A stretch of 64,000 bases of DNA from Ophiocordyceps camponoti-saundersi (nom. inval.). Taxonomy: Eukaryota; Ascomycota; Sordariomycetes; Hypocreales; Ophiocordycipitaceae. Each line of letters opens with the position of its first letter. The first letter of the stretch is position 1. The notes under the pieces were generated by a model. It had not been told where the DNA came from and did not search any database. It was given only the letters and a program-made list of their open reading frames with translations. Both the position numbers and the translations under genes were made by a program. The stretch is from the NCBI GenBank assembly GCA_003339415.1, contig PDHQ01000057.1, forward strand, positions 62,001 to 126,000. The letters are read 5' to 3'. Shown here one piece after another: positions 16,085 through 45,653 of this stretch.

Positions 16085-16092
16085 TCTAGGAT
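16085..16092. repeat. Left 8-bp target-site duplication TCTAGGAT of the giant element
   Basis: TCTAGGAT occurs here directly before the left end and again at 45646-45653 directly after the right end. The match is perfect. Confidence 0.92.
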
Positions 16093-16105
16093 AAGTATTT
16101 ATATT

Positions 16106-16560
16106 AAGTATTCATATTTGCCACGGCACCTATTCCTATTAGACACGATACTCCTAGATTTAGCGGTACGTACCGAATTACTAAGGCATTTTCCGACCTA
16201 CCCTACCACGTAACGTGATAGCGGTATAAGGCCTAGGGAGACTTAAATATCGCTCGTAGTCCGTAAGTACCTATCTTTTTATCTACCCGCGCGCACGCTT
16301 TACGTTTTCTAGCCGGAAAAAAAATAGTAGAGGTAAGCAGAGGTAGGTATAGAAGGTATAGGTAAGCTTAGTTAGGCATAGAAACGTAAAAGTAGGTAGA
16401 GGTAGGCAGAAAAGATAGATACCTATAGATTATAAGTAACTTTAGGCGTCCTACGACTTTATACCGGGCAAAAAAAATTATCTTTATTATTAGGTATATA
16501 CCGCTAATTTCAGAATATCGTATCTAATAGGAATAGGTGCCGTGGCAAATATAAATACTC
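16106..16560 (+). mobile_element. Short non-autonomous TIR element (MITE copy 1), nested in the giant's left TIR
   Basis: 455 bp with terminal inverted repeats AGTATTCATATTTGCC... and ...GGCAAATATAAATACT. It is flanked by the perfect 8-bp duplication TTTATATT (16098-16105 and 16561-16568), which is bases 6-13 of the giant element's own terminal repeat. It is nearly identical to the copy at 51979-52432 but carries TG-to-TA and CA-to-TA changes (for example CGTATC for CGTGTC near the right end), a mild RIP imprint shared with its host. Confidence 0.93.
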
Positions 16561-16568
16561 TTTATATT

Positions 16569-16800
16569 TGCCACGGCACCTATTCCTATTAGACACGATA
16601 TTCCTAAAAAGGGTAGTACGTACCTCGTAACTAAGATATTTTTTCCGCGCTACGCTACGCTATATAATAGTAATATAAAATCCTAGAAAAAAAAAATATT
16701 ACTCGTAATCCTTAAGTACTTAATTTTCTTAAGCGCGCTTTATATTTAATAGCCGCTATAAATTACGGAAAATAACTATAATAGCTATACGCTAAGTATT
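16569..16800 (+). repeat. Left long terminal inverted repeat of the giant element
   Basis: The outer ~36 bases (TGCCACGGCACCTATTCC and following) are free of RIP. Farther in, the sequence diverges by RIP yet still aligns with the short elements (GTACGTACC, then ATTACTCGTAATCC, then AAGCGCGCTTT). Its inverted partner is at about 45405-45645. Confidence 0.85.
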
Positions 16801-18020
16801 AATATATATATACTAAGTATAAGTATATATAAGTACTAATATATATAGGTACCGGTATATATATAGGTATTAATATATATAAGTATTAGTATATATATAT
16901 AAGTATTAGTATATATAAGTATAAGTATATATAAGTATTAATATATATTTTAGGTATTAATATATATAAGTATTAATATATATAAATACTAGTATATATA
17001 TATAAGTATATATAAGTATTAATATATACTCTAGGTATTAGTATATATATACCGGGTATAAGTATATATAAATATAAGTATATATAAGTATTAATATATA
17101 TTTCGGGTATTAGTATATATATATAGGCACGAGTATATATATAAGTACCGGTATATATAGGTACCGGTATATATATAAGCACTGGTATATATAAGTATCG
17201 GTATATATATATAAGTACCGGTATATATAGGTATAGGTATATATAAGTATTAGTATATATTTTAAGTATAAGTATATATAAGTATTAGTATATATAAGTA
17301 CTAGTATATATATAAGCACTAGTATATATAAGTACTAATATATATAGGTATTAATATATACTCCGGGCACTAGTATATATATATAAGTATTAGTATATAT
17401 AGGTACCGGTATATATAAGTAGCGGTATATATATATAAGTAGCGGTATATATATAAGTATAGGTATATATAAGTACTAGTATATACTCCGGGTATTAGTA
17501 TATATATATATAAGTACCGGTATATATAAGTAGCGGTATATATATAGGCACTAGTATATATAAGCACTAGTATATATATATAAGTATTAATATATATAAG
17601 TACCGGTATATATATATAGGTATTAGTATATATAAGCACCGGTATATATAAGTATTAGTATATATTTTAAGTACCGGTATATATATATAAGTACCGGTAT
17701 ATATAAGTACCGGTATATATATATAGGTATTAGTATATATAGGCACTAGTATATATATATAAGTATTAGTATATATAAGTACTAGTATATATATAAGTAC
17801 TAGTATATATATATAAGTATTAATATATATAGGCACTAATATATATATAAGCACCGGTATATATATATATAAGTACTAGTATATATAGGTAATAGTATAT
17901 ATATAAGTATAAATATATATAAGTATTAATATATACTCCGAGCACTAGTATATATATATATAAGCACTAGTATATATAGGTACTAATATATATATATAAG
18001 TACTAATATATATATATAAG
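16797..18020. repeat. A-array 1: AT-rich palindromic short repeats
   Basis: Degenerate units of about 18-24 bp built on palindromic cores TATACTAGTATA and TATACCGGTATA joined by AAGTATT or AGGCAC spacers. The forward-looking peptides here (Y-I-Y-L repeats) are by-products of the TATA units, not genes. Confidence 0.85.
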
Positions 18021-18168: not shown

Positions 18169-21100
18169 CGGGTATATAGCGGCGGGCATAGCGGCGGGAG
18201 ATAATTATAAGAGATAGCTATAGTAAATATAGTAGCGGGTATAGTAGCGAGAGATAATTATAAGAAATAACTATAATAGGTATATAAGAGTAAGAGATAA
18301 TTATAAAAGATAGCTATAGCGGGTATACGGGGGCGGGAGATAATTATAGTAAGTATAGCGGCGAGAAATAATTATAGCGAGTATATAAGGGCGGGAGATA
18401 ATTATAATAAATATAGTAGTAAGAGATAATTATTATAGCAGGTATATAGTAATAAAAGATAATTATAAAAGATAATTATAGTAAGTATATAAAAGTAAGA
18501 GATAATTATAAAAAATAATTATAGCGGGAGATAATTATAGCGGGTATAGCGGTAAAAGATAACTATTATAGTAAGTATATAGCGGTAAGAGATAACTATA
18601 AAAGATAACTATAGTAAGTATATAAAGGCGGGAGATAATTATAATAAATATAATAATAATAATTATAATAAGTATATAAAGGTAAAAGATAATTATAGCG
18701 GGCATAGTAATAATAATTATAATAAATATATAGTAGCGAGAAATAATTATAAGAGATAATTATAATAGGTATATAAGGGCGGGAAATAACTATAAGAGAT
18801 AATTACGGTAAGTATAGTAACGAGAAATAATTACTATAGTAAGTATATAGCGGCGAGAGATAATTATAAAAGATAACTATAGCGAGTATATAAGGGCGGG
18901 AAATAATTATAGCAGGCATATAATAGTAAAAGATAATTATAAGAGATAATTATAGCGGGTATATAAGGGCGGGAGATAACTATAGCGAGTATAGTAATAG
19001 TAATTATAATAAGTATATAGCGGCGAGAGATAATTATAAAAAATAATTATAATAGGTATATAGGGGCGGGAGATAACTATAATAAGTATATAGCGGCGAG
19101 AAATAACTATAAAAGATAATTATAGCGGGTATATAAGGGCGGGAGATAATTATAAGAGATAACTATAGTAAGTATAGCGGCGAAAGATAATTATAAAAGA
19201 TAACTATAGTAAGTATATAAAGGTAGGAGATAATTATAGTAAGTATAGCGGCGAGAGATAATTATAAGAGATAGCTATAGTAGGTATAGCGGCGGGCATA
19301 GCGGCGAGAGATAACTATAAGAGATAACTATAGCGAGTATAGCGGCGAGAGATAACTATAAGAGATAATTATAGCGAATATAGCGGCGGGAGATAATTAT
19401 AAAAAATAGCTATAGTAAGTATATAGCAGCGAGAGATAACTGCTATAGCAAGCATAGTAGCGGGAGATAATTATAAGAAATAGCTATAGTAGGTATATAG
19501 TAGCGAGAGATAATTATAAGAGATAGCTATAGTAAGTATAGCGGCGGGCATAATAGCGAGAGATAACTACTATAGTAGGTATATAGCGGCGAGAGATAAT
19601 TATAAGAGATAGCTATAACGGGCATAGTAGCGGGCACGGCGGCGAGAGATAACTATTATAGCGGGCATATAGCGGCGAGAGATAATTATAAAAGATAGCT
19701 ATAATAAGTATATAAGGGCGGGAGATAATTATAAAAGATAATTATAGCGAGTATAGCAGCGAGAGATAATTATAAGAGATAATTATAGCGGGCATACAGG
19801 GGCGGGAGATAATTATAATAAGTATAATAGTAAGAGATAACTACTATAGCGGGCATATAATAGCGAGAGATAACTGCTATAATAAGTATATAGTAGCGAG
19901 AGATAATTATAAAAGATAGCTATAGCGGGTATATAAGGGCGGGAGATAACTATAAAAGATAACTATAGCGGGTATAGCGGCGAGAGATAATTATAAAAAA
20001 TAACTATAGCGGGCATATAAGAGCGAGAGATAATTATAGTAAGTATAGCGGTAAAAGATAACTATTATAATAGGTATATAATAGTAAGAGATAATTATAA
20101 AAGATAGCTATAGCGAGTATATAGCGGCGAGAGATAATTATAAGAAATAGCTATAGTAGGTATAGTAGCGGGTATAGCGGCGAGAGATAACTATTATAGC
20201 AGGCATATAGCAGCGAGAGATAATTATAAAAGATAGCTGCGGTAGGTATAATAGCGGGAGATAACTACTATAGCGGGCATATAGCGGCGAGAAATAATTA
20301 TAAAAGATAATTATAGTAAATATAATAGCGAGAGATAATTATAAAAGATAATTATAGTAAGTATAGCGGCGGGAGATAATTATAAGAGATAATTATAGCG
20401 GGCATAATAGTAAGTATAATAGCGAAAAATAATTATTATAGCGGGTATATAATAGTAAGAGATAATTATAAGAGATAATTATAATAAGTATATAGTAGCG
20501 GGAGATAATTATAAAAGATAATTATAGCGAGTATAGTAGCGGGTATAGCGGCGAGAGATAATTATAAAAAATAGCTGCGGCAGGTATAGCGGCGGGTATA
20601 GTAGCGAGAGATAATTATAAAAGATAGCTATAGCGGGCACGGCGGCAGGCACGGCGGCGAGAGATAATTATAAGAGATAATTATAGCGGGTATAGTAGCG
20701 AGAGATAACTATAAGAAATAGCTGCGGCGGGTATAGCGGCGGGAAATAATTATTATAATAAGTATATAGTAGCGAGAGATAACTATAAGAGATAGCTATA
20801 GCGGGCATAATAGCGGGAGATAACTATTATAATAAGTATATAGCAGCGAGAAATAATTATAAAAAATAGCTATAGCGGGCATAGTAGCGGGAGATAACTA
20901 CTATAGCAAGCATACGATAGCGGGAGATAATTATAAGAGATAGCTATAATAAGTATAGTAGCGGGAGATAATTATAAAAGATAGCTATAGCGGGCATAGT
21001 AGCGGGCATAGTAGCGAAAGATAACTATAAGAGATAATTACGGTAAATATAGCGGCGAGAGATAATTATAAAAGATAACTATAATAAGTATAGTAGTAGG

Positions 21101-21290
21101 AGATAATTATAAAAGATAACTGCGGCGAGTATATAGTAGCGGGAGATAACTATAAGAAATAGCTATAGCGGGTATACGGCGGCGGGAGATAACTATAAAA
21201 GATAACTACGGCGGGTATAGTAGCGGGAGATAACTATAAAAGATAGCTATAATAAGTATAGCGGTAAAAGATAGCTATAATATAAAGTAT
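18169..21290 (+). repeat. C-array 1: GAGATAATTATAAGAGATAGCTATAG repeats (3.1 kb)
   Basis: Dozens of tandem, RIP-varied units. Each has a GCGGCGGGAGATAATTATAA part and an AGATAGCTATAGCGGGTATA part. C and G survive mainly at CpG and GpG, where RIP does not act. Confidence 0.85.
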
Positions 21291-22214
21291 ATAAGTATAT
21301 ATATAAATAAAATATTATAGCCGCCGCCTTATCTCTTATTTATTATTTAAAAATAACTCCTCGTTATCTAAGTTTTTATTTAACTTATTATTATTACCCT
21401 CGCCCTCCCCCTCCTTATCTTCTTCCTCGTTATTTTTTTTATTTTCGTTTTTATTTTCGTTTTTATTTTTATTATCCTTATCTTCGTTATCTTTATTCTT
21501 CGCCCTTATATAAAAGTAGTTATAATAGCGATTTTTCGAATCCTAAATATATAAGCTATAAGCCGCTTCTTAAAACCCGCGTAGATAGTAGTAGCTTAAG
21601 AAAAGGCTATTTCTTCGCCTACCGTAATAATATCCGCACGGGCCTTAAGCGGGGAACCGCTTAGTAGCTTAAATAATAGTAATATAATAATAACTATCTT
21701 ACCGAATTACTTTAGTAATTAACTTAACCGCTATTTCGCTAGCTTAGAGGCGTAAGGAGATATTATATAGCGTTTTAGCTAAAAAGCGTTTTTCCTTATC
21801 TTATTATATAATTAGTATTTATTTACGAAAATATCTTATACGAAGAAGATATATACGGTAATAGCGCTTTAGATAAATTTAGTATAAATTTTAATATCGG
21901 TCCCTAAAATAATAATTACTATTTTACTTATAAGGGGGAGGCGGCTTAGTATTATAATAATAGATATAATAATCGTTATATAATTTTTTATTCTTTTTCT
22001 TATTTTTCTTTTTTAATTATTATAATAGTTATAAAAGGAAAGAAAATTTTTCTTATATAAAAAAAAGAAGAAAAAGGTACCCCTTTTACCTTATAGAACT
22101 TACTAGGGGTAAATAGCGACCTACTACTTACTACCGCTTAGTAATTTACCTTATACCTTTTCGCACTTTCTACTATAGCTAAAGCTATAGCTTAGAACTT
22201 TAACTTATATAACT
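21291..22214. other. RIP-mutated low-copy spacer between cassettes 1 and 2
   Basis: Non-tandem AT-rich sequence with TCTTCG/TTTTTATT stretches (21400-21500). It probably held coding sequence before RIP, but I cannot recover a recognisable frame on either strand. Confidence 0.5.
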
Positions 22215-23800
22215 TAATACCGGTATATATATAAGTACTAGTATATACGCTAGGTACTAATATATATAAGTATTAATATATATAGGTATTAGTATATATA
22301 TAAGTATTAATATATACGCCGGGCACCGGCATATACGCTAAGTACTAATATATATAAGTACTAGTATATATATATAAGTAGCGGTATATATATAAGCATA
22401 GGTATATATATAAGTACTAGTATATATATAAGTATTAGTATATATATATAAGTATTAATATATATATAAGTACCGGTATATATATATAAATATTAGTATA
22501 TATATATAAGGTATAAGTATATATATATTAGGTATTAGTATATATAGGCACCGGTATATATATATAAGTATTAGTATATATATATAAGGTATAGGTATAT
22601 ATAGGCACTAGTATATATATATAAGCACCGGCATATATATAAGTATAGGTATATATAAGCACCGGTATATATATATAAGCACTAGTATATATATATAAGC
22701 ACTAGTATATATATAAGCACTAGTATATATATATAAGTACTAGTATATATATATAAGGTATAGGTATATATATACTAAGTACTAGTATATATAAGTATTA
22801 GTATATATATATAAGTACTAGTATATATATAAGTATTAGTATATATAAGTATTAGTATATATATATAGGCACCGGTATATATATAGGCACTAGTATATAT
22901 ATATAAGCACCGGTATATACTCCGAGTATTAGTATATATATAAGCACTAGTATATATATAGGTATTAGTATATATATAAGCACTAGTATATATATACTAG
23001 GTATAAGTATATATAAGTATAAGTATATATAAGTACCGGCATATACTCCGAGTATTAGTATATATATATAGGCACTAGTATATATAGGCACTAGTATATA
23101 TATAAGCACTAGTATATATATATAAGTACTAGTATATATATAAGTATTAGTATATATATAAGCACCGGCATATATATACCGGGTATAAGTATATATAAGT
23201 ATAAGCATATATAGGCACTAATATATATAAGTACCGGTATATATATAAGCACTAGTATATATATATAAGCACTAGTATATATATAAGTACTAGCATATAT
23301 ATAAGTACCGGTATATATATACCGGGCATAGGCATATATAAGTATAAGTATATATAAGTATAGGTATATATAAGTATTAATATATACTCCAAGCACTAGT
23401 ATATATATATAGGCACCAGTATATATAAGCACTAGTATATATAAGCACTAGTATATATATATAGGCAGCGGTATATATATAGGTATAAGCATATATAAGC
23501 ACTAATATATATATAGGCACCGGCATATATATATAAGCACTAGTATATACTCTAGGCACTAATATATATATAAGTACTAGTATATATATAAGCACCGGTA
23601 TATATATAAGTACTAGTATATATATACCGAGTATAAGTATATATAGGTATAAGTATATATAAGTATTAGTATATACTCTAGGCACTAATATATATATATA
23701 TAGGCACTGATATATATAGGTAGTAATATATATATAAGTATAGGTATATATAAGTATTAGTATATATATATAGGTATTAGTATATATATATAAGTATTAA
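22215..23800. repeat. A-array 2
   Basis: Same palindromic TATACTAGTATA/TATACCGGTATA array as at 16797-18020, with occasional TATATACTCCGAG or TATACGCTAG spacers. Confidence 0.85.
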
Positions 23801-23942
23801 GTAATATAAGTTAATTTTATAGAAATTATATATAAAAAGTAATTAATTTTTAGTATATTTTACGACTAAGCTATACTTATAAGAGTGCGCTTAAATTTAG
23901 CTTATAGGACTTATAAGGGGGGGTTATAAATCCCCTTTTTAG
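23795..23942 (+). repeat. B-module 2
   Basis: RIP-diverged copy of the 150-bp module, ending in GGGGGGGTTATAAATCCCC. It is flanked by an A-array on the left and a C-array on the right, as in cassette 1. Confidence 0.85.
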
Positions 23943-24700
23943 CGGGCATACGGCGGCGGGCATAGTAGCGGGAGATAATTATAAGAGATAATTACGGCGG
24001 GCACGGCGGCGGGAGATAATTATAAAAGATAGCTATAGTAAGTATAGTAGCGGGCACGGCGGCGAAAAATAACTACTATAGCGGGCATATAGCGGCGAGA
24101 GATAATTATAAGAGATAGCTACGGCGAGTATAGTAGCGGAAGATAACTACTATAGCGGGTATATAGCGGCAAGAGATAACTATAAGAGATAATTATAATA
24201 AGTATAGCGGCGAGAGATAACTATAAGAGATAATTACGATAAGTATAGTAGCGGAAGATAATTATAAGAGATAACTATAGCGGGCATAATAGCGGGTATA
24301 GCGGCGAGAGATAATTACTATAGCAAGTATATAGTAGCGAGAGATAATTATAAAAGATAACTATAGCAGGTATATAGCGGCGGGAGATAATTATAAGAGA
24401 TAACTATAGTAGGCATAGCGGCGGGCATAGCGGCGAGAGATAATTATAAGAAATAGCTATAGCGAGTATAATAGCAGGCATAGCAGCGAGAGATAATTAT
24501 AAAAGATAGCTATAACGGGTATAGCGGCGAGCACGGCGGCGAGAAATAACTATAAGAGATAATTATAGCGGGTATAGCGGCGAGAGATAACTATAAGAGA
24601 TAGCTATAATAGGCACGGCGGCGGGAGATAACTATAAGAGATAGCTATAGCGGGTATAGTAGCGGGAGATAATTATAAAAAATAGCTATAGCGGGCATAT
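23943..24700 (+). repeat. C-array 2
   Basis: GAGATAATTATAAGAGATAG / GCTATAGCGGGCATAG units as in C-array 1, about 0.75 kb. Confidence 0.85.
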
Positions 24701-25724
24701 AATAGTAGAAAATATAGTAGGCTTAAGATTATACTTAAAAGTATCGTAAATCTAAGAGATTATAAGCGAGAGAGGTATTAAGAGAAGTATTAACTTACCT
24801 AATATTCTAAGAAAGTAAGCGTATTTTATAAACTACGCCCTTAACGGCGGCGAGAAAATATCCGCTACCTTCCCCCTAACTATCCCCCTTTATTCTTTTT
24901 AGCTATTAGCCCCTCCTTCTCTTATTAAGCTTTTAGTATAAGTAATAGCTATTTCTTAAGGGGCGGGAATAGCGGCGGCCCCTATTATTAAAAAGCTTAT
25001 TATAGCCTTATCTCCCTTACTATTAAGGGTTTTACCGCCGCCTCTTATAGCTTAAGCTACGAGATCGGTATTAAATATAATATTATCCTTAACCGCTTTT
25101 CTACCGCCTAAGGGATTACGATCTCTAAGCTTAAGGTATATTTATAAAAAGTATAGTATTTAATATTATAAATTATATAATCGTAATATAGCGAAAATAA
25201 GTCCTTTATATTTATTATTAATCTTTTAAAAGCGTAGTTTTAGCTAGAGATATTTCTTATTATAAAAATAAAGAGAAATCGCTTACTAAAGGTAATAAAG
25301 CTATCGTAAAGTTTCTAAGTATTATTTCTAAATCTTTTATAGCTTTTTATATTTTTAGTAAGGGCGTAAATAAGTATAATTAAGGGTAATTAGGGATAAT
25401 TAATACGTATAAAGAGAAGGAAAAAACGTAATAAGTATAACTTATAACTATAAATATTAAAAAAGATAGTAAAAAGCTTCCTTATACCTTATCTTATTAA
25501 TAAGGGGGAAATAAAAGAAAAAAGAGATACCTTAAAGAAAATAAATAATTATATATATTATAATTTTTACTTACTATTTTCGCCTTAAAGATTTAGGATA
25601 GTAAGTAGCGATAATATCTTATAATATATAGTTATTTTTATAGCGTAAAGAGGCGGGAAGTAAGTTAATTAATCTTTAAAAGAAAAAAATCTAGTAGCTT
25701 CCCGGTAATCTAAGGTAAGTATAA
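24701..25724. other. RIP-mutated low-copy spacer between cassettes 2 and 3
   Basis: AT-rich sequence with CCCCCTTTATTC and GGCGGCGG patches and many in-frame TAA/TAG. Probably a decayed gene or transposon, but not identifiable. Confidence 0.45.
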
Positions 25725-26640
25725 GGGGGCACCGGTATATATAAGTATTAATATATATATAAATAGCGGTATATATATAGGTAGTAGTATATATATAAGT
25801 ATAAGTATATATATAAGCACTAGTATATATAAGTATTAGTATATACTCCGGGCACTAGTATATATATAAGTACCGGTATATATATAAGCACTAGTATATA
25901 TATAAGTATATATAAGTATTAGTATATACTTCGGGCACTAGTATATATATATAAGCACTAGTATATATAAGTATAAGTATATATAAGCACCGGTATATAC
26001 TCCGAGCACCGGTATATATAAGCACCGATATATATAGGTAGCGGTATATATATATAAGTAGCGGTATATATATAGGTATAAGTATATATAAGCACTAGTA
26101 TATATATATAGGTAGCGGTATATATATAAGCACGGGTATATATAAGTACTAATATATACTTCGGGTACTAATATATATAAGCACCGGTATATATAAGTAA
26201 TAGTATATATATATAAGCACTAGTATACTAGTATATACGCTAGGTACTAGTATATATATAAATACCGGCATATATAAGCACTAGTATATATAAGTACTAG
26301 TATATATAAGCACCGGTATATATAAGTACTAGTATATATATAAGCACTAGCATATACGCTAGGCACTAGTATATACGCTAGGCACTAGCATATATATAAG
26401 CACTAGTATATATAAGCACCGGCATATATAGGCACTAGTATATATAAGCACTAGCATATATAGGCACTAGTATATATATAAGCACCGGCATATACGCTAA
26501 GCACTAGTATATACGCTAAGCACCGGTATATATATAAGTATTAGTATATTAATATATATGCCGGGCACCGGCATATATATAAGCACTAGTATATATAAGT
26601 ACTAGTATATATAGGCACCGGTATATTAGTATATATAAGC
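25725..26640. repeat. A-array 3
   Basis: Third palindromic AT-rich array, with more GCAC and TACGCTAGGCAC spacers than the others. Confidence 0.85.
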
Positions 26641-27249: not shown

Positions 27250-30200
27250 TTAATAAAAGGTAGGTAAAAACTTAAATAAAATTTTATTACTTACTACTTT
27301 TTTACCGGTAGCACTTCTTTACTAGCTTTACTTTCGTGCTAATAGTACTCTTTACTTTACTACCGGTAATATTTTCCCGCTAATAATACTTTTCTATTAT
27401 TTTTATTTTATTACCGGTAGCACTTTTTTATTAGCGGCACTCTTTACTTTATAGTACTTTTTACTTTACTATTAATAGTACTTTCCCGCTAGTAGCACTT
27501 TTTTACTACTTTTATTTTACTACTAGTAGCACTTTCTTACTAGCAGCACTCTTTACTTTATAGCACTCTTTACTCTGCTACTAGTAGCACTTTCCCGTTA
27601 GTAGCACTTTTCTATTACCTTTATTTTACTACTAGTAGTATTTTCCTACTAGCGGCACTTTTTACTTTACGGTACTTTTTACTTTACTACTAGTAATATT
27701 TTCCCGCTAGTAGTATTTTTCTACTAGCTAGCCGGTATACTTAGTCCGCTAATATAAAGAATATAGCCCTTAGGTAATAATTATAATTACTAAGAATATC
27801 TAACTAGCTAGGTTTTAAATATTATAGCTTATTACTTAAAAGAATAGGAGAAAGCTAAGCTAAACCGCCTCTTACTAGAAAAGAAAAGGGATAAGATTTA
27901 CTTTATTAATAAAATATAAAAAGCTTAAAAATAAGATATCTACTTTAAATCTTTATCGAGATAAGACGCGGAAGAAGATAGTAAGATAGCTATCTTTAGT
28001 AATATACCGCTATTATATAACTTATACGCTATTAGAATACTTTTAAAAATAAGAAAAATATTTTATAAAAAGATTACTAAAAATAGTAATCTTTGCTAGA
28101 TATCTTTAGTAATATATTATTATTATCTAACTTATACGCTATTAAGATATTTTAAAAAATAAGAAAAATATATTATAAAAAAATTATTAGAAATAGTAAT
28201 CTTTATTAGAAAAACTAAATAATTATTACTAGTAGTACCTTTTATATTATAATACTTTTTACTTTATTACCGGTAGTACTCTTTATATTATAATACTCTT
28301 TACTTTATTATTAATAGCACTTTTTATATTATAATACTCTTTACTTTTTATTTTATAATACTTTTTACTTTACTACCGGTAGTATTTTCTTACCGGCGGC
28401 ACTCTTAACTTTACTACCGGTAATAGAGTACTTCGCTAGAAACTAGCTAGCTTCCCTTTTCTACTACCTTTACTTTTAGCACTTTCCTACTAGCAGCACT
28501 CTTTACTTTATTATTAGTAAGAAGGTCGGCACTCTTTACTTTATTACCGATAGGAAAATTAGTATTTTTTACTCTCTTACTAGTAGCACTCTTTACTTTA
28601 CTACTAGTAGCACCTTCCTACTAGCGGCACTCTTTACTTTATTACCGGTAGCACTTTTTATTTTACGGCACTCTTTACTCTATTACCGGCTTTACTTTTT
28701 TACTAGTAGTACTTTCCTACTAGCAGCACTCTTTACTCTCTTACTAGTAATACTCTTTACTTTACGGTATTTTTTACTTTATTACTAATAGGAAGGTCGG
28801 CACTTTTTACTCTACTACTAATAAGAAGGTCGGCACTTTTTACTCTCTTACTAGTAGCACTCTTTACTCTATTACTAATAGCACCTTCCTACCGGTAGTA
28901 TTTTTTACTTTATTACCGGTAGCACTTTTTACTTTACGGCACTCTTTACTTTACTACTAGTAGTATTTTCTTACTAGCGGCACTTTTAACTTTATTACCG
29001 GTAGCACTTTTTACTTTATAATACTCTTTACTTTATTACTAGTAGTACTCTTTATATTACGATACTCTTTACTTTACTACTAGCAGTATTTTCCTACTAG
29101 TAGCACTCTTTACTTTATTATTAATAAGAAGGTCGGCATTCTTTACTCTTTTACTAATAACACTCTTTACTTTATAGCACTCTTTACTCTATTACTAGCA
29201 GCACTTTCCTACTAATAGCACTCTTAACTTTACTACTAATAGTACTTTTTACCTTATAATACTCTTTACTTTATTACCGGTAGCACTCTTTATATTACGA
29301 TATTTTTTACTTTACTACTAATAGCACTTTCTTATCGGCAGCACTCTTTACTCTACTACTAATAAGAAGGTCGGCACTTTTTACTTTTTTACTAGTAGTA
29401 CTCTTCGCTTTATAGTACTTTTTACTTTACTACCGGTAATACTTACCTACTAGCAGCACTTTTTACTTTTTAAGCGAAGCTAAAAAATATCGCGAAAAGG
29501 TCTTTATTAGAAATATTTTACGCTATTATTAAAAACTTAATAAATATAAATTATCTCGCTACGCTAAATATAAAGCTAGAGAGCTTAATTAACTTTAATA
29601 ATAACGATTAGGTTATATATTAGAATATCTTCGAAGTAAAACTAAGCGTTTATATCTTTAATATAAATTTAAAAGCTTAAGTTAGCTAGCTTAAGTAAAG
29701 AAATTAATTTTTTACTTATAAGTATTAAATTTTATACCTAAGTAAATTAAATCCCCTATAATAAAATACTCTTTATTTTACTATTAATAGTACCTACCTG
29801 CTAGCGGTACTCTTTACTTTATTTCTAATAATAAAATATTTCGCTAGAAACTAGCTAGCTTCCCTCTTCTATTACCTTTACTCTTAGCACTTTCCTACTA
29901 GCGGCACTCTTTACTCTACTACTAGTAGTACTTTCCTACTAGCAGCACTCTTTACTCTCTTACTAGTAGCACTCTTTACTTTATAGCACTCTTTACTTTA
30001 TTACTAGTAGAAAGGTTAGCACTCTTTACTTTATTACCGATAAGAAAGTTAGCACTCTTTACTTTTTTACTAATAGCACTCTTTACTCTGCTACCGGCAG
30101 CACTCTTTACTTTATAGCACTCTTTACTTTACTACTAGCTTTACTCTTTTACTAGCAGTACTTTCCTACTACCTTTACTCTTTTTTTACCTTTACTCTAT

Positions 30201-33350: not shown

Positions 33351-33359
33351 ATATATAAT

Positions 33360-34190: not shown

Positions 34191-34264
34191 CTATAATAAC
34201 TAATTTTTTTTATATTTCTTAAATTAAGTATACTTATATAGCTAAAGTTTAATATAATATACTT

Positions 34265-35030
34265 AAAAAGTTAATTTTAAAGTAACTTATTAGATAAGGA
34301 GGTTTGAAAGCTTAGTATACTTTATAATACGCCTCGCCTCTTAGCCTAGCCTTAAGTAGCTTATAGTAACTTATTAAATAAAGAGGTTCGAAAGCTTAGT
34401 ATACTTTATAGTATACCTCGCCTCCTAGCCCGGCCTTAAGTAGCTTATAGTAACTTACTAAATAGGGAGGTTCGAAAGCTTAGTATATTTTATAGTACGC
34501 CTCGCCTCCTAGCTTAGCCCTAAGTAGCTTATAATAACTTACTAAATAGGGAGGTTCGAAAGCTTAGTATACTTTATAGCACGCCTCGCCTCCTAGCTTA
34601 GCCCTAAGTAGCTTATAATAACTTACTAAATAGAGAGGTTCGAAAGCTTAGTATACTTTATAGCACGCCTCGCCTCCTAGCCTAGCTTTAAATAGCTTAT
34701 AGTAACTTATTAGATAGAGAGGTTTAAAAGCTTAGTATATTTTATAGCACGCCTCGCCTCCTAGCCCGGCCCTAAGTAGCTTATAGTAACTTATTAAATA
34801 AGGAGGTTTAAAAGCTTAATATATTTTATAGCACGCCTCGCCTCCTAGCCTAGCCCTAAGTAGCTTATAATAACTTACTAAATAAAGAGGTTTAAAAGCT
34901 TAGTATACTTTATAGTACGCCTCGCCTCCTAGCCCGGCCCTAAGTAGCTTATAATAACTTACTAAATAAGGAGGTTCGAAAGCTTAGTATACTTTATAAT
35001 ACGCCTCGCCTCCTAGCTTAGTTTATATAA
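34265..35030. repeat. 84-bp satellite (nine copies)
   Basis: Units begin near GTAACTTATTAAATAAGG, contain GGTTCGAAAGCTTAGTATAC and TACGCCTCGCCTCCTAGCC, and repeat every ~84 bp about nine times with RIP-type differences. Confidence 0.85.
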
Positions 35031-35034
35031 TCTA

Positions 35035-35865
35035 TCTATATTATATACCCTTACTTTACTAAGTATTTTAAGGAGTTAATCTTATAAGGCCTTAGATAAA
35101 AATAATAATATTAAATTAACTATATTTTATTTCTACTTACTATTAAATAAAGAATAGCTTAAAAGGTTACCTTTTAAGCTAAAAAAAAGCTATAAGTATA
35201 CCTTTTTAAGCTAGGAAAAGCTTAAATAGTTTATTTTTTTATAAGTCTAAAAGGCGTACTAATAAGTATAGCCTCTTATACTACTCCTTAAGAGTAAGAG
35301 AAAGGTTACTTTATATTATTTTTACTATTATAATATTAATAGCCCGCGGTTACCTCCTATTATAACTATAATATATAAGATAGCCCTTATCTTACTATAA
35401 ATAGACGCTAGGCTTTTAATATATAAGGTAAGAGTTACTTATAGCCGCGGCTTTAAGCTAGCCTTAGGCGCTAGCGGGGTTACTTAGCGGGGATCTTAAG
35501 GTAGCGTAAAAACTATTATCTATACTAAGTATACCGAAAGCTAGAGCTTACGAGGTCTATTCCGAATAAGATAATAGGCGTAGTTTAAATATAAGATAGG
35601 TATAGCGAGGCTATAAGAGGGGGGCGACGCTTAGCTTAAGCCTTATAAGGGGCACTCGCCTTATACTAGCTGCCCCCTCTTATATTATTATATATAGGAT
35701 AGTTACGGTAAGACCGTAAAAGGGGAGCGACGCTTAGCTTAGGCCTCCTTAAGTAAGGTACTTACTTTACGCTAGCTGCCCCCTTTTAAAATACCTATAG
35801 AGAAAATTTAAGTATACTTATATAAAGCTAATATTTACCGTAAAACGTTTTAGTATAACTAAATC
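35035..35865. other. RIP-mutated segment with a repeated GCGACGCTTAGCTTA block
   Basis: Mostly low-copy sequence. Two related ~70-bp blocks (about 35,620-35,690 and 35,735-35,800) share GCGACGCTTAGCTTA and CTAGCTGCCCCCTTTT. No gene is recognised. Confidence 0.45.
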
Positions 35866-35869
35866 GTAT

Positions 35870-36575
35870 AAGATTTATAAAACGCTAATACTTATAATAA
35901 AATAATTTTAGAAATATTAAAAGGATTAGAGTTAGGAAGCGTAGTATTTTAAATTAGTTATTTTAACTTATCTTAGTCTTTTACCCCGAAAATACTTAAG
36001 TAATACTTATATAAAGGATAATATTACTAGGAATCTTTTACCTTTTTACTTACTATAATATACTTTATATCGCTAATAGATATATTATTATATAGTAATA
36101 AGATTTATAAAATAATAATACTTATAATAAAGTAACTTTAAAAATATTTAGGGGATTAGAGTTAAGAAGCGTAATATTTTAAATTAGTTATTTCGACTTA
36201 TCCTAATCCTTTACTTTAAAAATACTTAAGTAATATTTATATAAAAGATAATATTACTAAGAATCTTTTACCCTCTTACTTACTATAATATACTTTATAT
36301 TGCTAATAGATATATTATTATATAGTAATAAGATTTATAAAATAATAATACTTATAATAAAGTAACTTTAGAAGTATTTAAGGGATTAGAGTTAGGAAGC
36401 GTAGTATTTTAAATTAATTATTTTAACTTATCTTAATCCTTTACCCCGAAAATACTTAAGTAATACTTATATAAAGAATAATATTACTAGGAATCTTTTA
36501 CCCTCTTACTTACTATAATATACTTTATATTACTAATAAATATATTATTATATAATAAAGCCTTTTTAATTATTA
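35870..36575. repeat. ~236-bp tandem repeat (three copies)
   Basis: Copies start with AGATTTATAAAATAATAATA near 35,870, 36,107 and 36,342. They include AAGGGATTAGAGTTAGGAAG and AGGAATCTTTTACCC. Confidence 0.85.
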
Positions 36576-36579
36576 TAAT

Positions 36580-37140
36580 ATACTTTATATTATTAATAAA
36601 TATATTATTATATATAAAATATTTTAAAAAACTAAGAGTTACTACTTACTACTTACGGTATTTATAATATTTAAATATAAAGTAGCTTAAGTAAACTTTA
36701 CTATTTAATTAACTTACTACTTACTACCTATTACTTACTACTTACTACTTATTACTTACTACCTATTACTTACTATATTAATAATACGCTTAGTATATAA
36801 ATCTTAATTATATACTATTAGTAAGATATTATATATATAGCTTAGTAATATAAAGTAACTTTAATTAAACTTTAAAGTACTTAGCACTTTAATCTACTTA
36901 CTACTTACGGTATCTTCGATATACTTAGTACTTTAATTTACTTACTACTTATAATATTTTTAATATACTTAGCACTTTAATCGGCTTATTACTTACGGTA
37001 TCTTCGGTATACTTAATACCTTAATCGGCTTACTACTTATAATATCTTCGGTGCACTTAGTACCTTAATTAGCTTACTACTTATAATATACTTATATTAT
37101 ACTTACTATAGCTATCTTTTACTATTATATGCCCGCTATT
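36580..37140. repeat. Short TACTTACTACC-type and ACTTAGCACTTTAATC-type repeats
   Basis: Two simple arrays: TTACTACTTACTACC (36,715-36,775) and a ~55-bp unit with ATACTTAGCACTTTAATC (36,880-37,090), bordering the first inverted cassette. Confidence 0.7.
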
Positions 37141-37290
37141 ATAAGGGGGGATTTATAACCCCCCCTTATAAATCTTAAAAAGCTAATTTAAGCGCACTTT
37201 TATAAGTAAAGCTTTAGTAATAAAATATACTATAAATTAATTACTTTTTATATATAATTTTTATAAAATTAACTTACGCTACTTAGTGCT
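37141..37290 (-). repeat. B-module 4 (inverted)
   Basis: Inverted copy starting with the hairpin GGGGGGATTTATAACCCCCC. A short A-array remnant (GTGCTTATATATAC) follows at the outer side. Confidence 0.85.
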
Positions 37291-37299
37291 TATATATAC

Positions 37300-37440
37300 T
37301 TATACTTAATTATCTCTCGCTATTATACCCGCTATAGCTATCTTTTACTACTATACTTATTATAGCTATCTCCCGCTACTATACTTACTATAGTTATCTC
37401 TTACTATTATATACCTCGCGCTATAATTATCTCCTATTAT
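37300..37440 (-). repeat. C-array fragment, inverted
   Basis: About 140 bp of ATCTCCCGCTACTATACTTAC units, the reverse complement of the left-arm C-arrays. Confidence 0.8.
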
Positions 37441-37450
37441 TATATACCCG

Positions 37451-37600
37451 CTAAAAGGGGGATTTATAAACCCCTTTCTTATAAGTCTTATTAGCTGAAT
37501 TCGGGCGCACTCTCGTAAATATAGCTTAGTTATAAAATATATTAAAATTTAATTACTTTTTATATATAATTTTTATAAAATTAACTTACGTTACTTATTA
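37451..37600 (-). repeat. B-module 5 (inverted)
   Basis: Inverted copy with hairpin AAAGGGGGATTTATAAACCC. Confidence 0.85.
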
Positions 37601-37609
37601 CCTATATAT

Positions 37610-37790
37610 ACTATACGCTATAATTATTTTCTTCCCTTATATACTTACTATAGTTCCCGCCGCTATACTCGCCGTAAGTATTTTCTTCCCCTATATACCT
37701 ATTATAGTTATCTTCTTCTCTTATATACCTGCTATAATTATCTTTTTCTCCTATATACTACCTACTATAATAGTCTCCTACCCCCGTATA
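37610..37790 (-). repeat. C-array fragment, inverted, with TATTTTCTTCCC variants
   Basis: Units combine TATATACCTGCTATAATTATC with TTCTTCTCC, a variant absent from the left arm. Confidence 0.75.
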
Positions 37791-37794
37791 CTTA

Positions 37795-37945
37795 CTAAAA
37801 GGGGGATTTATAAACCCCCCCCTTATAAGTTTTACTAGCTAAATTTAAGCGCACTTTTATAAATATAGCTTAGTTATAAAATATACTAGAATTTAATTAC
37901 TTTTTATATATATTTTTTATAAAATTAACTTACGCTACTTATTAC
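37795..37945 (-). repeat. B-module 6 (inverted)
   Basis: Inverted copy with hairpin AAGGGGGATTTATAAACCCC. Confidence 0.85.
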
Positions 37946-37949
37946 TTAT

Positions 37950-39205
37950 ATATATTACGCGCTATAGTTTTCTCTTATTATTATACTTACCGTAAGTATC
38001 TCCTATTACTATACCCGCTATAGCTATTTTTTATAATTATCTCCCGCTACTATGCCCGCTATAGTTGTTTTCTTCCCCCGTATACCTGCTATAATTCCTG
38101 CCGCTATACTTATTATAGCTATCTTTTTATAGTTATCTCTTATTACTATACTTACTATAACTATTTTTTATAATTATCTCTTACTATTATACTTATTATA
38201 ATTATCTTCTTTTACTATACTTGCTATAGTTATTTTTTTATAATTATCTTCCGCTACTATGCCCGCTATAGCTATCTCTTTATAATTATCTCTTACTACT
38301 ATACCCGCTATAGCTATCTTTTATAATTATCTCCCGCTATTATACCTGCTATAATTATTTTTTTTTACTATACCTGCTATAGCTATCTTTTTATAATTAT
38401 CTCCCGCTATTATACTTACTATAGCTATCTTTTTATAATTATCTCCCGCTATTATACTTATTATAGCTATCTCTTATAGTTATCTCCCGCTATTATGCCC
38501 GCTATAGTTATCTCCCTTTACTATACCTACTATAACTATCTTTTTATAGTTATCTCTTACTATTATATACTTACTATAGCTATCTTTTTATAATTATCTC
38601 TTACCGCTATATACCCGCTATAAGTATCTTCTTCCCTTATATACCCGCTATAATTATTTTCTTCTCTTATATACCCGCTATAATTATTTTCTTCTTCTAT
38701 ATACTACCTGCTATAATTATCTTTTACCGCTATATACTTATTATAGTTACTCTTACTATACTTATTATAGCTATTTCTTATAGTTATTTTCCGCTACTAT
38801 ACCCGCTATAGCTATCTCTTATTATTATATTTACTATAATAATTTTCTTCCCTTATATACTTATTATAATTATCTTTTATAACTATATACTTATTATAAT
38901 TACTATTACTATGCCTGCTATAATAGTTTTCTTCCCTTATATACTTATTATAGTTATTATTATTATACCCGCTATAGTAGTTTTCTTCCCCTATATACCC
39001 GCTATAGTTACTACTATTATACTTATTATAATAGTTTTCTTCCCTTATATACTACCCGCTATAATTATCTTCTTCCCCTATATACCCGCTATAGTTATCT
39101 TTTTCCTCTATATATTACGCGCCGTAATTATCTTCTACCGCTATATACTTATTATAATTATTATTACTATACTTATTATAATAATCTCTTACTTTTATAT
39201 ATTTA
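37950..39205 (-). repeat. C-array 4, inverted (1.25 kb)
   Basis: Reverse-complement C units (TATAGCTATCTTTTATAATT / ATCTCCCGCTACTATACCCG). The later part has TTTTCTTCCCTTATATAC variants. A 108-codon open frame at 38911-39237 (MPAIIVFFPYI repeats) is a by-product of these units. Confidence 0.85.
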
Positions 39206-39207
39206 CT

Positions 39208-39355
39208 AAAAGGGGGATCTATAACCCCCCCTTATAAGTCTTACTAGCTAAATTCGAGCGTACTCCCGTAAATATAGCTATAATCGTAAAATATACTAAA
39301 ATTTAATTACTTTTTATATATAATTTTTATAAAATTAACTTACGCTATTATATAT
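39208..39355 (-). repeat. B-module 7 (inverted)
   Basis: Inverted copy with hairpin AGGGGGATCTATAACCCCCC. Confidence 0.85.
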
Positions 39356-39374
39356 TATTTAAATAAAAAATTAT

Positions 39375-39475
39375 ATTTTTAGTATATTTATTATAGCTAT
39401 TTTCTACCCTTATATACTTATTATAATTACTATTACTATACCTATTATAATAGTCTCTTACTCTTATATACCCGC
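39375..39475 (-). repeat. C-array fragment between B-modules 7 and 8
   Basis: About 100 bp of inverted C-type units (TTATAGCTATTTTCTACCCT and TATACCTATTATAATAGTC). Confidence 0.75.
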
Positions 39476-39625
39476 TAAAAAGGGGATTTATAACCCCCCC
39501 TTATAAGTCCTACTAGCTAAATTTAAGCGTACTCCCGTAAGTATAGCTTAATCGTAAAATATATTAGAATTTAATTATTTTTTATATATAATTTTTATAA
39601 AATCGATTTACGCTACTTAATAGCT
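39475..39625 (-). repeat. B-module 8 (inverted)
   Basis: Inverted copy with hairpin AAGGGGATTTATAACCCCCC. It borders the outer A-array, as B1 does on the left. Confidence 0.85.
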
Positions 39626-40941
39626 ATATATACCGGTATATTAATACTTATATATATATATATATAAGTACTTATATATATACCGGTGCTTATATATATA
39701 CTAATACTTAGCGTATATATTAATATACTAGTACTTATATATATATTAGTGCTTATATATATGCCGGTACCTAGCGTATATATTAGTACTTATATATACT
39801 AATATTTATATATATATTAGTACTTATATATATCGGTGCTTAGCGTATATATTAATACCTATATATATACTAGTATTTATATATACTAATACTTATATAT
39901 CGGTACCTAGCGTATATATTATTATATTAGTACTTATATATATACTAATACTTATATATACCGGTACTTATATGCTAGTACCTAGCGTATATACTAATAC
40001 TTATATATACTAATATATATATATACCGGTACCTAGCGTATATACCGGTACTTATATATACTAGTACTTATATATACTAGTACTTATATATACCGGTACT
40101 TATATATATACCGGTGCTTATATATACTAATACTTATATATATTAGTATATATATATACTAGTGCCTAGCGTATATACTAATATATATATATACCGGTGC
40201 TTATATATATTAGTATTTATATATATACCGGTGCTTATATATACCGGTATATACTAGTGCCGGTATATACCGGTACCCGGTATATATATTAGTATATTAG
40301 TACTTATATATACCGGTATTTATATATATATTAGTGCCCGGAGTATATATTAGTACTTATATATACTAATACTTAGCGTATATATTAATATATTAGTGTT
40401 TATATATATACCGGTGCTTATATATACTAGTGCCTAGCGTATATACTAGTACCTATATATACCGGTGCTTATATATATGCCGGTGCTTATATATACTAGT
40501 GCCTAGCGTATATACTAGTGCTTATATATATACTAGTACCTATATATACTAATACCTATATGCTAGTGCTTATATATATATTAATACTTATATATATATA
40601 TTAATACTTAGAGTATATACTAGTGCCTATATATATACTAGTACTTATATATATATACTAATACTTATATATACTAATACTTATATATATATACTAGTGC
40701 CTATATATGCTAGTGCTTATATATATGCCGGTACCTATATATATATACCGGTGCCTATATATACTAGTACTTATATATATATACTAGTGCTTATATATAC
40801 TTATACTTATATATGCCGGTGCTTATATATATATAAATACTTATATATATGCCGGTGCCTATATATATACTAGTGCTTATATATATATACTAATACCTAG
40901 AGTATATACTAGTACTTATATATACTTATACCCGGTATATA
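39626..40941. repeat. A-array 4 (right arm, inner part)
   Basis: Palindromic TATACTAGTATA/TATACCGGTATA array, mirror of A-array 1. The nested mariner splits it from A-array 5. Confidence 0.85.
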
Positions 40942-43900
40942 CACCTATCTACGTGAATGTTTGTCTGCTAAGGGAGAGGGGGGGGGGGGGGGGGGGGGGT
41001 GGGGGGGGTCAAGGGGCCCGTTTTTAGTGTTTTTAAGAGCTTATTTCAGCTAATCAAGCCGGGCAGGCCGGGTCACAGGGATATAGGAGGGAACCTATAA
41101 CTAAGCCGTATTTCCTAGGGAAGAGAGGTATCTATAGGTTAATATAAGATAGTGAGAGTGTGAGGCTATAGGTTAGGCTTATAGGGGACGTTTTTAGTAT
41201 TTTAAGGCTACCGGCCGGGGTATTTTTAGTATTTTCTGATAGCCCGGTAGTAAGGCTACGAGTAAGGCTAACGATTAGGCTTAATAACGCTATTTTTAGT
41301 ATTTTCTAGTAAATTATATACCCCCCTTTAGCCTCGATTACGGCCTTAATCCTCTTAGGTATTAAGTTAATAAGGGATTTAAAATAATCCCCGCTTAACG
41401 ACTCCTATACCTCTATTATAGCTATCTTAAGGTCCTTGCTACTTAGCCTGCCCTCGGGATATCTCTAATCGATAGAAAACTTTATCTACGACTAGGCGTT
41501 CTTAATAGGGGAGAGATTAGGGCTACGGGCCGGCTACTTAGCTAGGTTACCTCCGGGGAATAAGGTCGCGATAAGATCTATCGTAGCTTTTACTTTATAT
41601 ATAAGGGCGTTATCTTATTAAATTATAGATACCCTAGCCGGCTAACGCCTCTAGAAGCTTGCAAAAAGGGGTAAAATTCTCTTATAATAGCCCTCCCCTT
41701 TAATTATACCCTAACCTTTTTACTATATAAGGCCTAGGCCCCTCTTACGGCCCCGGAAATAACCCTAAAATATCTATCTATTAGCTTTTTATTTAATATA
41801 TATAAATTTAATCGGGTTATCGTTTAGAATTTAGTAAGCTTTATATATAAAAGCCGGATAAGGGAGGGGAATATCGTGGCCTTAAAAAATAAAGGGGGAA
41901 AATAAAGGGGAAAAAGAAAGGGATAACCTACCCTCGAAGAGGGTAACCTAACCACGCTCTCTAATACTATTAACCTAGGTCTTATTAGACTATATCTACA
42001 TAGCCTAATCTTCCTTCGTAAGATATTAATATTCGAGGGCGAATTAAAGCCTCTTTTCCCGGGCTTTAGGGGGTAGATAAATAGCGCTGCGTTATCTCTT
42101 ATAGTAGGCTCCTACCGATTTTAGGGCTCTTATAATAGCCCCCGGGCTATACGGTAATAGCTTAGGGATAGTATTACGTAGCTTATAGGGGGCTATAAAT
42201 CGAGTTACCTTCCGTAGCGTATTAATTAGCTTTTTAAACCGGTCCCTTACGTCCGGAGGGATAATTAAGGGGCGGCTATAATTATAATATCCTAGCTTAA
42301 GGGGTTAACGAAGAGCATAGGAAACCTAGGAAGATAAATACGTTAAGATTAGGGGATTAAGATAGCCGTAATTAAGTAGTTAATTTACCTACTATTATAT
42401 AAGTTTTAGGGTAATAGCGATATTATTATTTAATATACCCCTAGCCTCCTTAAGGGTCCTAATTATAAGCCGTTAGTCCCTTATTATTAAGGCTAATTTT
42501 TTCCTTACCGTAATAGCTTTATCCGGCATATCCTTTTCTATATCCTCTCCCTTAGCGTTAACGTTATCGTTATCGCCCTAAGCCCCCTCCTATCTACCCT
42601 CTCCTTAGCTAGCCCCTAGTCTTATATCTAAGGGCGACGAAGGGCCGCCGGGGCCGGGTGCCTAGCCTACTACTAAATTAGCGATAGCCTTACCTTAGCT
42701 AGCGGCGGTGCCGCCGGCGTTAGCGGAGGGGGCGGTAGCGGTACTAACGGGCCCCGTAGCGGTAGGCGGAGGGGGGGGGGTTCGGGGAACGACTCTATTA
42801 TCGTCTCGAGATCGGCTAGGTCTATTATAGGGGTCGAGGGGGGGGGGGGCGTTATCGATAGCGGCGTTATCGGATAAGGGAGAGGTATTATAGGGGGGGT
42901 TAGCTACTAAGGTATCCTATTATCCTCGGCCTCCTCCTTAGCCCTAAGGCTAAGAAAGATAACTATCGCTAGTAGCTATAAGTATAGGGCCTTAATTATA
43001 AGGTACTATCGATAAGGGGGGTAATCTAAATATATATTAATCGATTAATTAATCGGTAAGGTAGTAATATTAATAATCTTAATATTAGTAATAATATTAA
43101 AAAGAGGGAAAAGGGGGGGGTCTCTAGTTAGTAGCTAGCTAAGATATAGAAGATATAGGCTTAGGAACCTAATCCCTAATAAATTATATAATATCCGGCT
43201 TTCCTAAAAAGGAGGGATATATTATAATAAGACGTAGCGCCGAGTATAATATTAATCCGGATAAAAAATTATAGTAAGTATTATAGTATATACTTAGACT
43301 TATCGCTCTTTTTTATAGATAACTACTATCTATAATAGTTTATTATTATAGCCGTTAAATTCCTTAGTAGATAGGCTTTCGAATACTTCTATTAGCTTCT
43401 CTATATCTCTCTTCTACGTAAAGTAATAGTCGATTAAAGATCGTAAGTTTGCTAAGTATCTAGTAATAACCTTAAATTAAGGGGGCGATAGCGGTAAGAA
43501 CTTTAATACCTTATAACTTCGTATCTAGAAGGCTATAGTAGATAAAAGTAGTACTATTTAACTTATCTTCTTCCGCTTTATCTAAAGGTATAGCTCTTAT
43601 TTAGATTAATCGCGATTTACTATTATAATAGGATAATTAAGATAGAATCTTACCTTATTATTATCTTTAGCCTTATATAGCCTCGCCTCGCCGGCCGGCA
43701 TCACGGGTTCTAGCCTTACGCTACGCGGCACCGGCTTCTAGAATAGGAGAAATAAAGGTCTTATAATAACCTCTAGCTACCTCTATTCCCTAGGAAATAC
43801 GGTGTAGCCGTAGGTTCCTCTCTATACCCCCTCTCGGCAGCCCTTATATCCGTATAAAATACTAAATTACCTAGCCGCCCGGACTATCGGCAGCCTTATT

Positions 43901-44096
43901 TATTAGGTCCTAGGACGACCTATAGATACCTCTCTTCCCTAGGAAATACCGTATAGCTATAGGTTCCTTCCTATATCCCTGAGACCTCCGCCGGGCCGGT
44001 TACGATTAGCTGCAACAAGCTTGAAGGCGCCCTCCCTAGCCCCCCCCCCCCCTCCCCCCCTCTCCCTTAGCAGACAAACATTCACGTAGATAGGTA
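40942..44096 (-). mobile_element. Nested Tc1/mariner element (~3.15 kb), RIP-decayed
   Basis: Ends are inverted copies: ACCTATCTACGTGAATGTTT and TTGTCTGCTAAGGGAGAGGG at the left, mirrored at 44061-44095. Both ends lie in TATA sequence, consistent with a TA target duplication. The inverted similarity continues inside (CAGGGATATAGGAGGGAACC near 41,079 against the mirror near 43,980). The terminal ~100 bp keep CpA/TpG, while the interior is RIP-mutated. It is longer than a usual 1.3-2 kb Tc1 element because of extended subterminal and low-complexity regions. Confidence 0.88.
41306..42400 (-). pseudogene. Tc1/mariner DDE transposase pseudogene
   Basis: On the minus strand the C-terminal part reads without frameshift; only RIP-type stops and substitutions occur. 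Visible blocks are SIIQQDNALIYKVKATIDLI (second catalytic Asp, about 41,570-41,630), FPGGNLAKxPARSPNLSPIK (the third catalytic position of SPDLNPIE, now Asn, about 41,500-41,560), DYFKSLINLIPKRIKAVIEA and KGGYIIY, ending with a stop at 41306-41308. TAA/TAG at former Q and W codons, and the Asp-to-Asn change, are what RIP would produce. The N-terminal boundary is approximate; upstream to about 43,000 is low-complexity G/C-rich sequence that may be a divergent N-terminus. Confidence 0.85.
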
Positions 44097-45404
44097 TATA
44101 TACTAGTATTTATATATATATTAGTATTTATATATATATATACCGGTATATATATACCGGTGCTTATATATGCCCGTGCTTATATATACTAGTACTTATA
44201 TATATACTAATACTTATATATATACCGGTGTTTATATATATACTAATACTTATATACTAGTGCTTAGCGTATATGCCGGTGCTTATATATATATTAATAC
44301 TTATATATACCGGTGCTTATATACTAATGCTTAGTATATATACTAGTGCTTATATATACTAGTGCTTATATATCGGTGCTCGGCGTATATACTAATATAC
44401 TAGTACTTATATATATATTAATACTTATATATACCGGTGCTTATATATCGGTGCTCAGCGTATATATTAGTATACCGGTGCTTATATATATATTAATACT
44501 TATATATACTAGTGCTTATATATTAGTACTTATATATATACTAGTACTTATATATATACCGGTGCTTATATATATACTAGTACTTATATATATATTAGTG
44601 CTTATATATATACCGGTGCTTATATACCGGTGCTTAATATATATACTAATACTTATATATACTAGTGCTTATATATTAATACCCGGCGTATATATTAGTA
44701 TACCGGTACTTATATATATATTAATACTTATATATATTAATACTTATATACCGGTACCTAGCGTATATATTAATACCTATATATACCGGTGCTTATATAT
44801 ACTAATACCTAATATATATATTAATACTTATATATATTAGTACTTATATATATATACTAGTATTAGTATATACTAATATTTAGCGTATATACTAATATAT
44901 ATATTAATACTTATATATACCGGTACTTATATATACTAATACTTAGCGTATATATTAGTATATATACTAATACTTATATATGCCGGTACCCGGCGTATAT
45001 ACTAATACTTATATATACTAATACCTAGCGTATATACTAGTACTTATATATACCGGTGCCTAGCGTATATATTAATACTTATATATATACCGGTACTTAT
45101 ATATATATCGGTACTTAGCGTATATATTAGTGCTTATATATATACTAATACCTAGTATATATATTAGTATATATACCGGTACTTATATATACTAGTATTT
45201 AGCATATATACTAATATATATACTAATACTTATATATATACTAATACTTATATATACTAATATTTATATATTAATACTTAGTATATATATTAATATATAT
45301 ACTAATACTTATATATATATTAATACTTATATATACTAATATTTATATACCGGTACTTAGCGTATATATTAATATCTATATATACCGGTGCCTATATATA
45401 TTAA
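44097..45404. repeat. A-array 5 (right arm, outer part)
   Basis: Continuation of the outer palindromic array after the mariner insertion, up to the right terminal inverted repeat. Open frames here (for example 44346-44840) are repeat by-products. Confidence 0.85.
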
Positions 45405-45645
45405 TATTAGCGTATAGCTACCGTAATTATTTTCCGTAATTCGTAGCGGCTATTAAACGCGAAGCGCGCTTAAGAAAATTAGGTATTTAGGGACTATAAG
45501 TAATATTTTTTTTTCTAGGACTTTATATTACTATTATATAGCGTAGCGTAGTACGGAAAAAATATCTTAGTAATTCGGTACGTATTGCTTAATTTAGGAA
45601 TATCGTGTCTAATAGGAATAGGTGCCGTGGCAAATATAAATACTC
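45405..45645 (-). repeat. Right long terminal inverted repeat of the giant element
   Basis: Inverted partner of 16569-16800: AATTCGTAGCGGC, AAGCGCGCTTAAG, TAGCGTAGCGTAGTACGG, and the intact end ATAGGAATAGGTGCCGTGGC. Confidence 0.88.
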
Positions 45646-45653
45646 TCTAGGAT
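45646..45653. repeat. Right 8-bp target-site duplication TCTAGGAT
   Basis: Perfect copy of 16085-16092, directly after AATACTC. Confidence 0.92.

Follow-up and report, generated by a model that had tools for sequence, protein, structure and literature searches.

Does the AT-rich, RIP-mutated block within the 64-kb stretch of DNA analysed here (the window) reflect a slow accumulation of repeats or a single insertion, and if the latter, of what kind? Inverted ends of ~240 bp, an 8-bp target-site duplication (TSD), a collinear second copy on contig C44 with a TSD of its own, a core with a broken MULE transposase, mirrored satellite arms and 30 MITE-sized pairs of ends with the same tips together identify the block, with high confidence, as a member of a family of giant Mutator-like elements (MULEs). 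The features of the element and the MITEs of the window are listed in Table 1.

Table 1. Features of the giant element and MITEs in the window (window coordinates)
Position	Strand	Feature	Remarks
16085–16092	.	Left 8-bp TSD	TCTAGGAT
16093–16105	+	Outermost 13 bp of left TIR	AAGTATTTATATT
16106–16560	+	Nested 455-bp MITE, same kind of ends as the giant	TSD TTTATATT, 8/8
16569–16795	+	Remaining left TIR	A-type end
16795–18016	+	Left arm, S1 satellite	Units of about 16–20 bp
18174–21280	+	Left arm, S2 satellite	Units containing AGATAAYTATAARAGATA
21292–22217	.	926-bp block	No Pfam domain
22223–26626	+	Left arm continued	S1, S2, ~1-kb non-satellite block, S1
27342–30818	+	Pyrimidine-rich minisatellites S3 and S4	Ahead of transposase; no mirror on other side
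30826–33325	+	RIP-broken transposase region	Matched along its length by C44, C111 and C305
31602–31865	+	MULE transposase domain PF10551	7 stops (2 TAG, 5 TAA)
33495–36558	+	Minisatellites	About 50, 84 and 230 bp
37140–40941	-	Right arm	Spacer motif, S2 and S1 satellites
40942–44096	.	Nested 3,155-bp Tc1/mariner-like element	TIR CACCTATCTACGTGAATGTTTGTC, TA duplication; borders by eye
44097–45406	-	Right arm, S1 satellite
45407–45645	-	Right TIR	B-type end
45646–45653	.	Right 8-bp TSD	TCTAGGAT
51979–52432		MITE	TSD AAGAAAAG, 8/8
59691–60133		MITE	TSD TTCTTTTT, 8/8

Borders of the insertion and a further complete copy

The + strand of the window contained TCTAGGAT only twice, once at each border of the element, and both copies directly abutted its inverted ends; one further occurrence, at 16680, lay on the - strand. 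This bears out the perfect 8-bp TSD beside inverted ends that had been described in a first-pass annotation. The right end, CCGTGGCAAATATAAATACTC (45625–45645), was uninterrupted, and the left TIR, split by the nested MITE, resumed as TGCCACGG at 16569, which explains why the left end had been written with an ellipsis. The TSD of this MITE (16098–16105 and 16561–16568) was duplicated out of the giant's own TIR. The TIRs, previously given as ~40 bp, were indeed present at both ends, and their similarity extended to about 240 bp (87% identity over 227 bp), after which satellites began.

A second copy, of 20,383 bp, was found at C44:167902–188284, flanked by a perfect 8-bp TSD, TTGTTATA, that differs from TCTAGGAT. 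The two copies had the same ends and a collinear interior, with 97.7% of the C44 element aligning to the window element and 84.8% of the latter aligning back; the window parts of at least 80 bp that lacked a C44 match were the central part of the nested MITE, two short runs of satellite, the Tc1/mariner-like element and the 926-bp block. Because the C44 copy is collinear and carries its own TSD, the window block is a single insertion that belongs to a family of such elements. The RIP index (CpA+TpG) was 0.77–1.50 outside both window borders, right up to the TSDs, and 0.00–0.21 just inside them.

Nested insertions and net size

The block measured 29.6 kb in all, of which the nested MITE (463 bp including its TSD) and the Tc1/mariner-like DNA made up ~3.6 kb, leaving ~25.9 kb of the element's own DNA. 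The earlier description of a single ~29.5-kb element therefore stands as one insertion between exact borders, and its size is to be reduced by the ~3.6 kb of nested DNA. Both nested elements would have entered the window copy afterwards. The sole domain match in the Tc1/mariner-like element, HTH_Tnp_Tc3_2, was sub-threshold (E 0.025). This element had long G/C runs immediately inside its TIRs, and full or partial copies of it were present on many contigs, including C711, C730, C233, C221, C413, C377, C355 and C670. The 926-bp block recurred at 85–86% identity in the copies on C305 and C180, and a repeat spread over many further contigs matched it more weakly, at 65–80%.

Mirrored satellite arms

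The arms are satellite arrays that run in opposite orientation on the left and on the right. Matches to the S1 pattern (+:-) numbered 124:0 in the left half and 1:84 in the right half of the window element, and 107:0 and 0:163, respectively, in C44, giving both copies the inverted arms of tandem repeats that characterise foldback-type elements. The same orientation rule held for S2 (+ 65, - 8 in the window; + 12, - 3 in C44) and for the spacer motif (+ 3, - 5 and + 2, - 5, respectively). S3 and S4 were repeats of the core, without mirroring of the S1 type.

The ~1-kb non-satellite block of the left arm (24720–25722) was common to other giants. Capture of a host gene, as in a Pack-MULE, was suggested for this block by exon-like matches in C222, C551 and C701; this idea was dropped because the C551 match, the one of the three that was read, was poor in CpA/TpG and had no frame longer than 64 amino acids.

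An interior consisting mostly of tandem repeats (217 rows, 150 of them listed) and the presence of free MITEs nearby are what might be expected if satellites had piled up over time in an AT-rich island that two MITE ends happened to flank. Such a history is scarcely credible, however, given that the outer TSD is perfect, that giant ends are alike over ~227 bp, the match of MITE ends to them mostly covering just the initial 75–163 bp, that C44 is collinear with a TSD of its own, and that both copies have mirror-oriented arms and the RIP border is sharp. The collinear C44 copy with its different perfect TSD and the abrupt stop of RIP at the borders uphold the first-pass view of a single inserted DNA transposon rather than a slow pile-up.

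A MULE core broken by RIP

We scanned most of the non-satellite DNA of the C44 element against Pfam in six frames, with X at stops (L049:3740–4752 and 6730–9683; L050:60–2701, 3640–5502 and 5500–8102; the satellites, L050:2702–3639 and L051 lay outside the scan). The only domain above its cut-off was the MULE transposase domain PF10551 (E 1.4e-11), which in the window copy, stop-broken, scored narrowly above the cut-off (E 2.2e-6; 28.5 bits against 27.6). The scanned C44 parts contained no hAT transposase domain, no polymerase or integrase of the Maverick/Polinton type and no recognisable cargo gene. Sub-threshold Pfam matches to HLH (E 0.22), 2C_adapt (0.051), EST1 (0.034), Flu_PB2_1st (0.14) and DUF5429 (0.67) were judged to be chance.

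Genome-wide, PF10551 was found at eight places. Six of these are copies with the core DNA of the giant (C44, C305, C111, C497, C506 and C529, the last being the window element), each with seven stops, all TAG or TAA, and the other two are stop-free fragments on C110. No intact transposase gene was found among these eight places; the stop-free C110 frames were rejected as a full gene, being rearranged fragments. The C110 locus (L072, C110:79500–86500) is a jumble of transposon fragments, little touched by RIP in appearance, among them MULE pieces that are free of stops and related to the transposase of the giant.

Alignment of four of the six cores (six pairwise comparisons) revealed 248–317 differences per 2494–2500 aligned bases, at most two per pair being other than transitions. 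This near-exclusive occurrence of transitions indicates that RIP acted on copies that were still almost identical. The cores are thus young copies killed by RIP, and their ancient look was made by RIP and not by age. CpA+TpG was nearly gone in the four aligned cores (index 0.03–0.07; C44 core 0.07), and the C44 element as a whole was only partly RIP-mutated (index 0.64, GC 0.433), with CA-rich units retained in its satellites. A silencing-type RNA-dependent RNA polymerase gene (window 1942–4710; PF05183, E 4.5e-149, with a fungal PH_fung_RdRP domain) lies about 11 kb away from the giant; this fungal polymerase and the RIP-type mutation point to a filamentous ascomycete as the host.

MITEs and giant ends across the genome

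With up to three mismatches allowed, the 45.7-Mb genome contained 71 + 57 occurrences of the element's tip, compared with 1 + 1 for a reversed control pattern. Exact tip searches with flanks yielded 109 ends (95 + 14) that formed 32 neighbouring pairs and left 45 ends unpaired; the window giant, with its split left tip, is outside this count. TSDs were perfect in 27 of the 32 pairs (18 of 8 bp and nine of 9 bp), the exceptions being C99:149129, C111:621839, C133, C304 and C399. Thirty pairs were MITE-sized (433–463 bp), and the other two were C44 and a 13,924-bp pair on C111 that had no TSD. The three 443–455-bp elements of the window, reported earlier to share the giant's ends and to carry 8-bp duplications of their own, proved real (Table 1).

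Among the 40 of 73 first-look candidates that were scored, the 227-bp subterminal sequence was found in at least 14 places at E <1e-50 (the window's two included, and two of the 14 partial), plus three contig edges. The resulting 17 giant-type ends imply at least nine giants. A string test assigned 12 of the 17 ends to type A (CCTAAAAAGGGTAGTA) or type B (CCTAAATTAAGC), and each of the four giants that could be paired had one end of either type: the window element, C44, C111:621839/C727 and C111:635762/C180. The B end at C111:621839 and the A end on C727 have the same TSD, CTGCTTAA; the B end at C111:635762 and the A end on C180 lie within one split MITE, the outer flanks of which, TGCGGGAT, match 8/8, and the TSD of this giant itself differs by one transition (ATTCATAT / ATTTATAT).

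The 13.9-kb C111 pair (621839–635762) was accordingly not accepted as a valid two-ended copy: the ends that face each other are both of type B, and their flanks match C727 and C180 instead. Two giants thus appear to have swapped ends between contigs (C111/C727:127/C180:21922), whether by misassembly or by a genuine exchange. A 49-kb span on C497 was likewise not counted as a giant with both ends, because the initial 61 bp of the query are missing from its right end and its inner blocks are rearranged in order. Only the window element and C44 had both ends on one contig together with a matching TSD.

The tips mostly keep AGTATTC, with C in 94 of the 109 exact ends, giant ends included. This retention would be in keeping with MITEs that, at ~450 bp, are close to the length limit of RIP.

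Superfamily and mode of movement

MULEs have TSDs of 8–11 bp, commonly 9, and long TIRs are typical of them, though not universal; hAT elements have an 8-bp TSD, and Maverick/Polinton elements have a 6-bp TSD and encode a viral-type polymerase and integrase. The PF10551 core, the perfect 8- or 9-bp TSDs of 27 of the 32 adjacent pairs and the TIRs of about 240 bp in the window copy all agree with a MULE. A Maverick/Polinton was rejected on the 8-bp TSD and on the scanned C44 parts, in which no such domains were found.

The link between the TIRs and the MULE gene is positional, and no other transposase could be read, so that the giant might belong to another superfamily, such as hAT, with the MULE gene a passenger inserted in an ancestor. 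We consider this improbable: the MULE region lies in the same collinear core of the window and C44 copies and extends over its full length in both C111 and C305, TIRs of ~240 bp and mixed 8- and 9-bp TSDs suit a MULE better than a hAT element, and the six-frame scans of most non-satellite C44 parts gave no other transposase.

Taking the giant as a MULE, an intact ancestor would have encoded a transposase that bound the TIRs. This enzyme may have moved the whole 20–26-kb unit by cutting DNA, with staggered cuts of 8–9 bp at the target, and the same enzyme would have mobilised the MITEs in trans. RIP would then have seen the giant copies as repeats and broken them, sparing most of the ~450-bp MITEs.

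Soundness of the assembly

Misjoins or rearrangements of the family occur in C111, C99, C133 and C304, and four contigs (C727, C73, C98 and C279) start 126 bp inside a family tip, as could happen if the assembly had joined satellites of different loci between two unrelated TIR ends. Three MITE-sized pairs (C99, C133 and C304) had unrelated flanks, and the flanks of C399 matched 6/8. For the window element such an artefact is nonetheless improbable: its outer flanks carry a perfect TSD despite the splitting of the left TIR by a nested insertion, it contains neither N bases nor a repeated 75-mer, it has no 100-mer in common with C44, and C44 independently shows the same block order. The C44 element also has no N bases and no repeated 127-mer (six 100-mers repeat). 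Misjoins of the family elsewhere in the assembly remain a caution, some joins being contradicted by TSDs.

Comparison with known systems

Discussion of giant mobile DNA in fungi usually centres on Starships. The present element resembles them in being such DNA, and it is unlike them in having TIRs, an 8-bp TSD, no DUF3435 captain and, in the scanned parts, no recognised cargo gene. The single DUF3435 captain-type match found in the genome sits on another contig (C75:32363–33187) and has 10 stops, in keeping with the first-pass statement that the structure is not that of a Starship.

The closest fungal Mutator-like elements are presumably Hop of Fusarium oxysporum (about 3.3 kb) and Mutyl of Yarrowia (about 7.4 kb), which share with this element the MULE transposase domain, TIRs and the size class of the TSD. 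They are far smaller than the 20–26 kb found here, where large mirrored satellite arms are present. Long inverted tandem-repeat arms that flank a transposase core are shared with the FB/Galileo foldback elements of Drosophila. Galileo, however, belongs to the P-superfamily, whereas the gene here is of the MULE type, and FB/Galileo arms form one long near-identical palindrome, whereas the arms here consist of oppositely oriented arrays built from the same units.

A bolder proposal, which we hold only tentatively and think doubtful, is that these elements form a fungal MULE lineage of their own, giant, foldback-like and autonomous, in which the mirrored arms are functional, their orientation being kept by selection or by intra-element conversion, and in which the arms provoke rearrangement between copies, the C111–C727–C180 swap being a real exchange.

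As a giant MULE, the element indicates that a classic DDE-type superfamily builds 20–26-kb units that, after RIP, resemble a heterochromatic AT island. Exact borders in AT islands would allow RIP-mutated blocks to be re-read as single insertions. A giant MULE with mirrored satellite arms differs from Hop and Mutyl, from Starships and from the foldback elements compared above, and is probably a variant of an established type of element.
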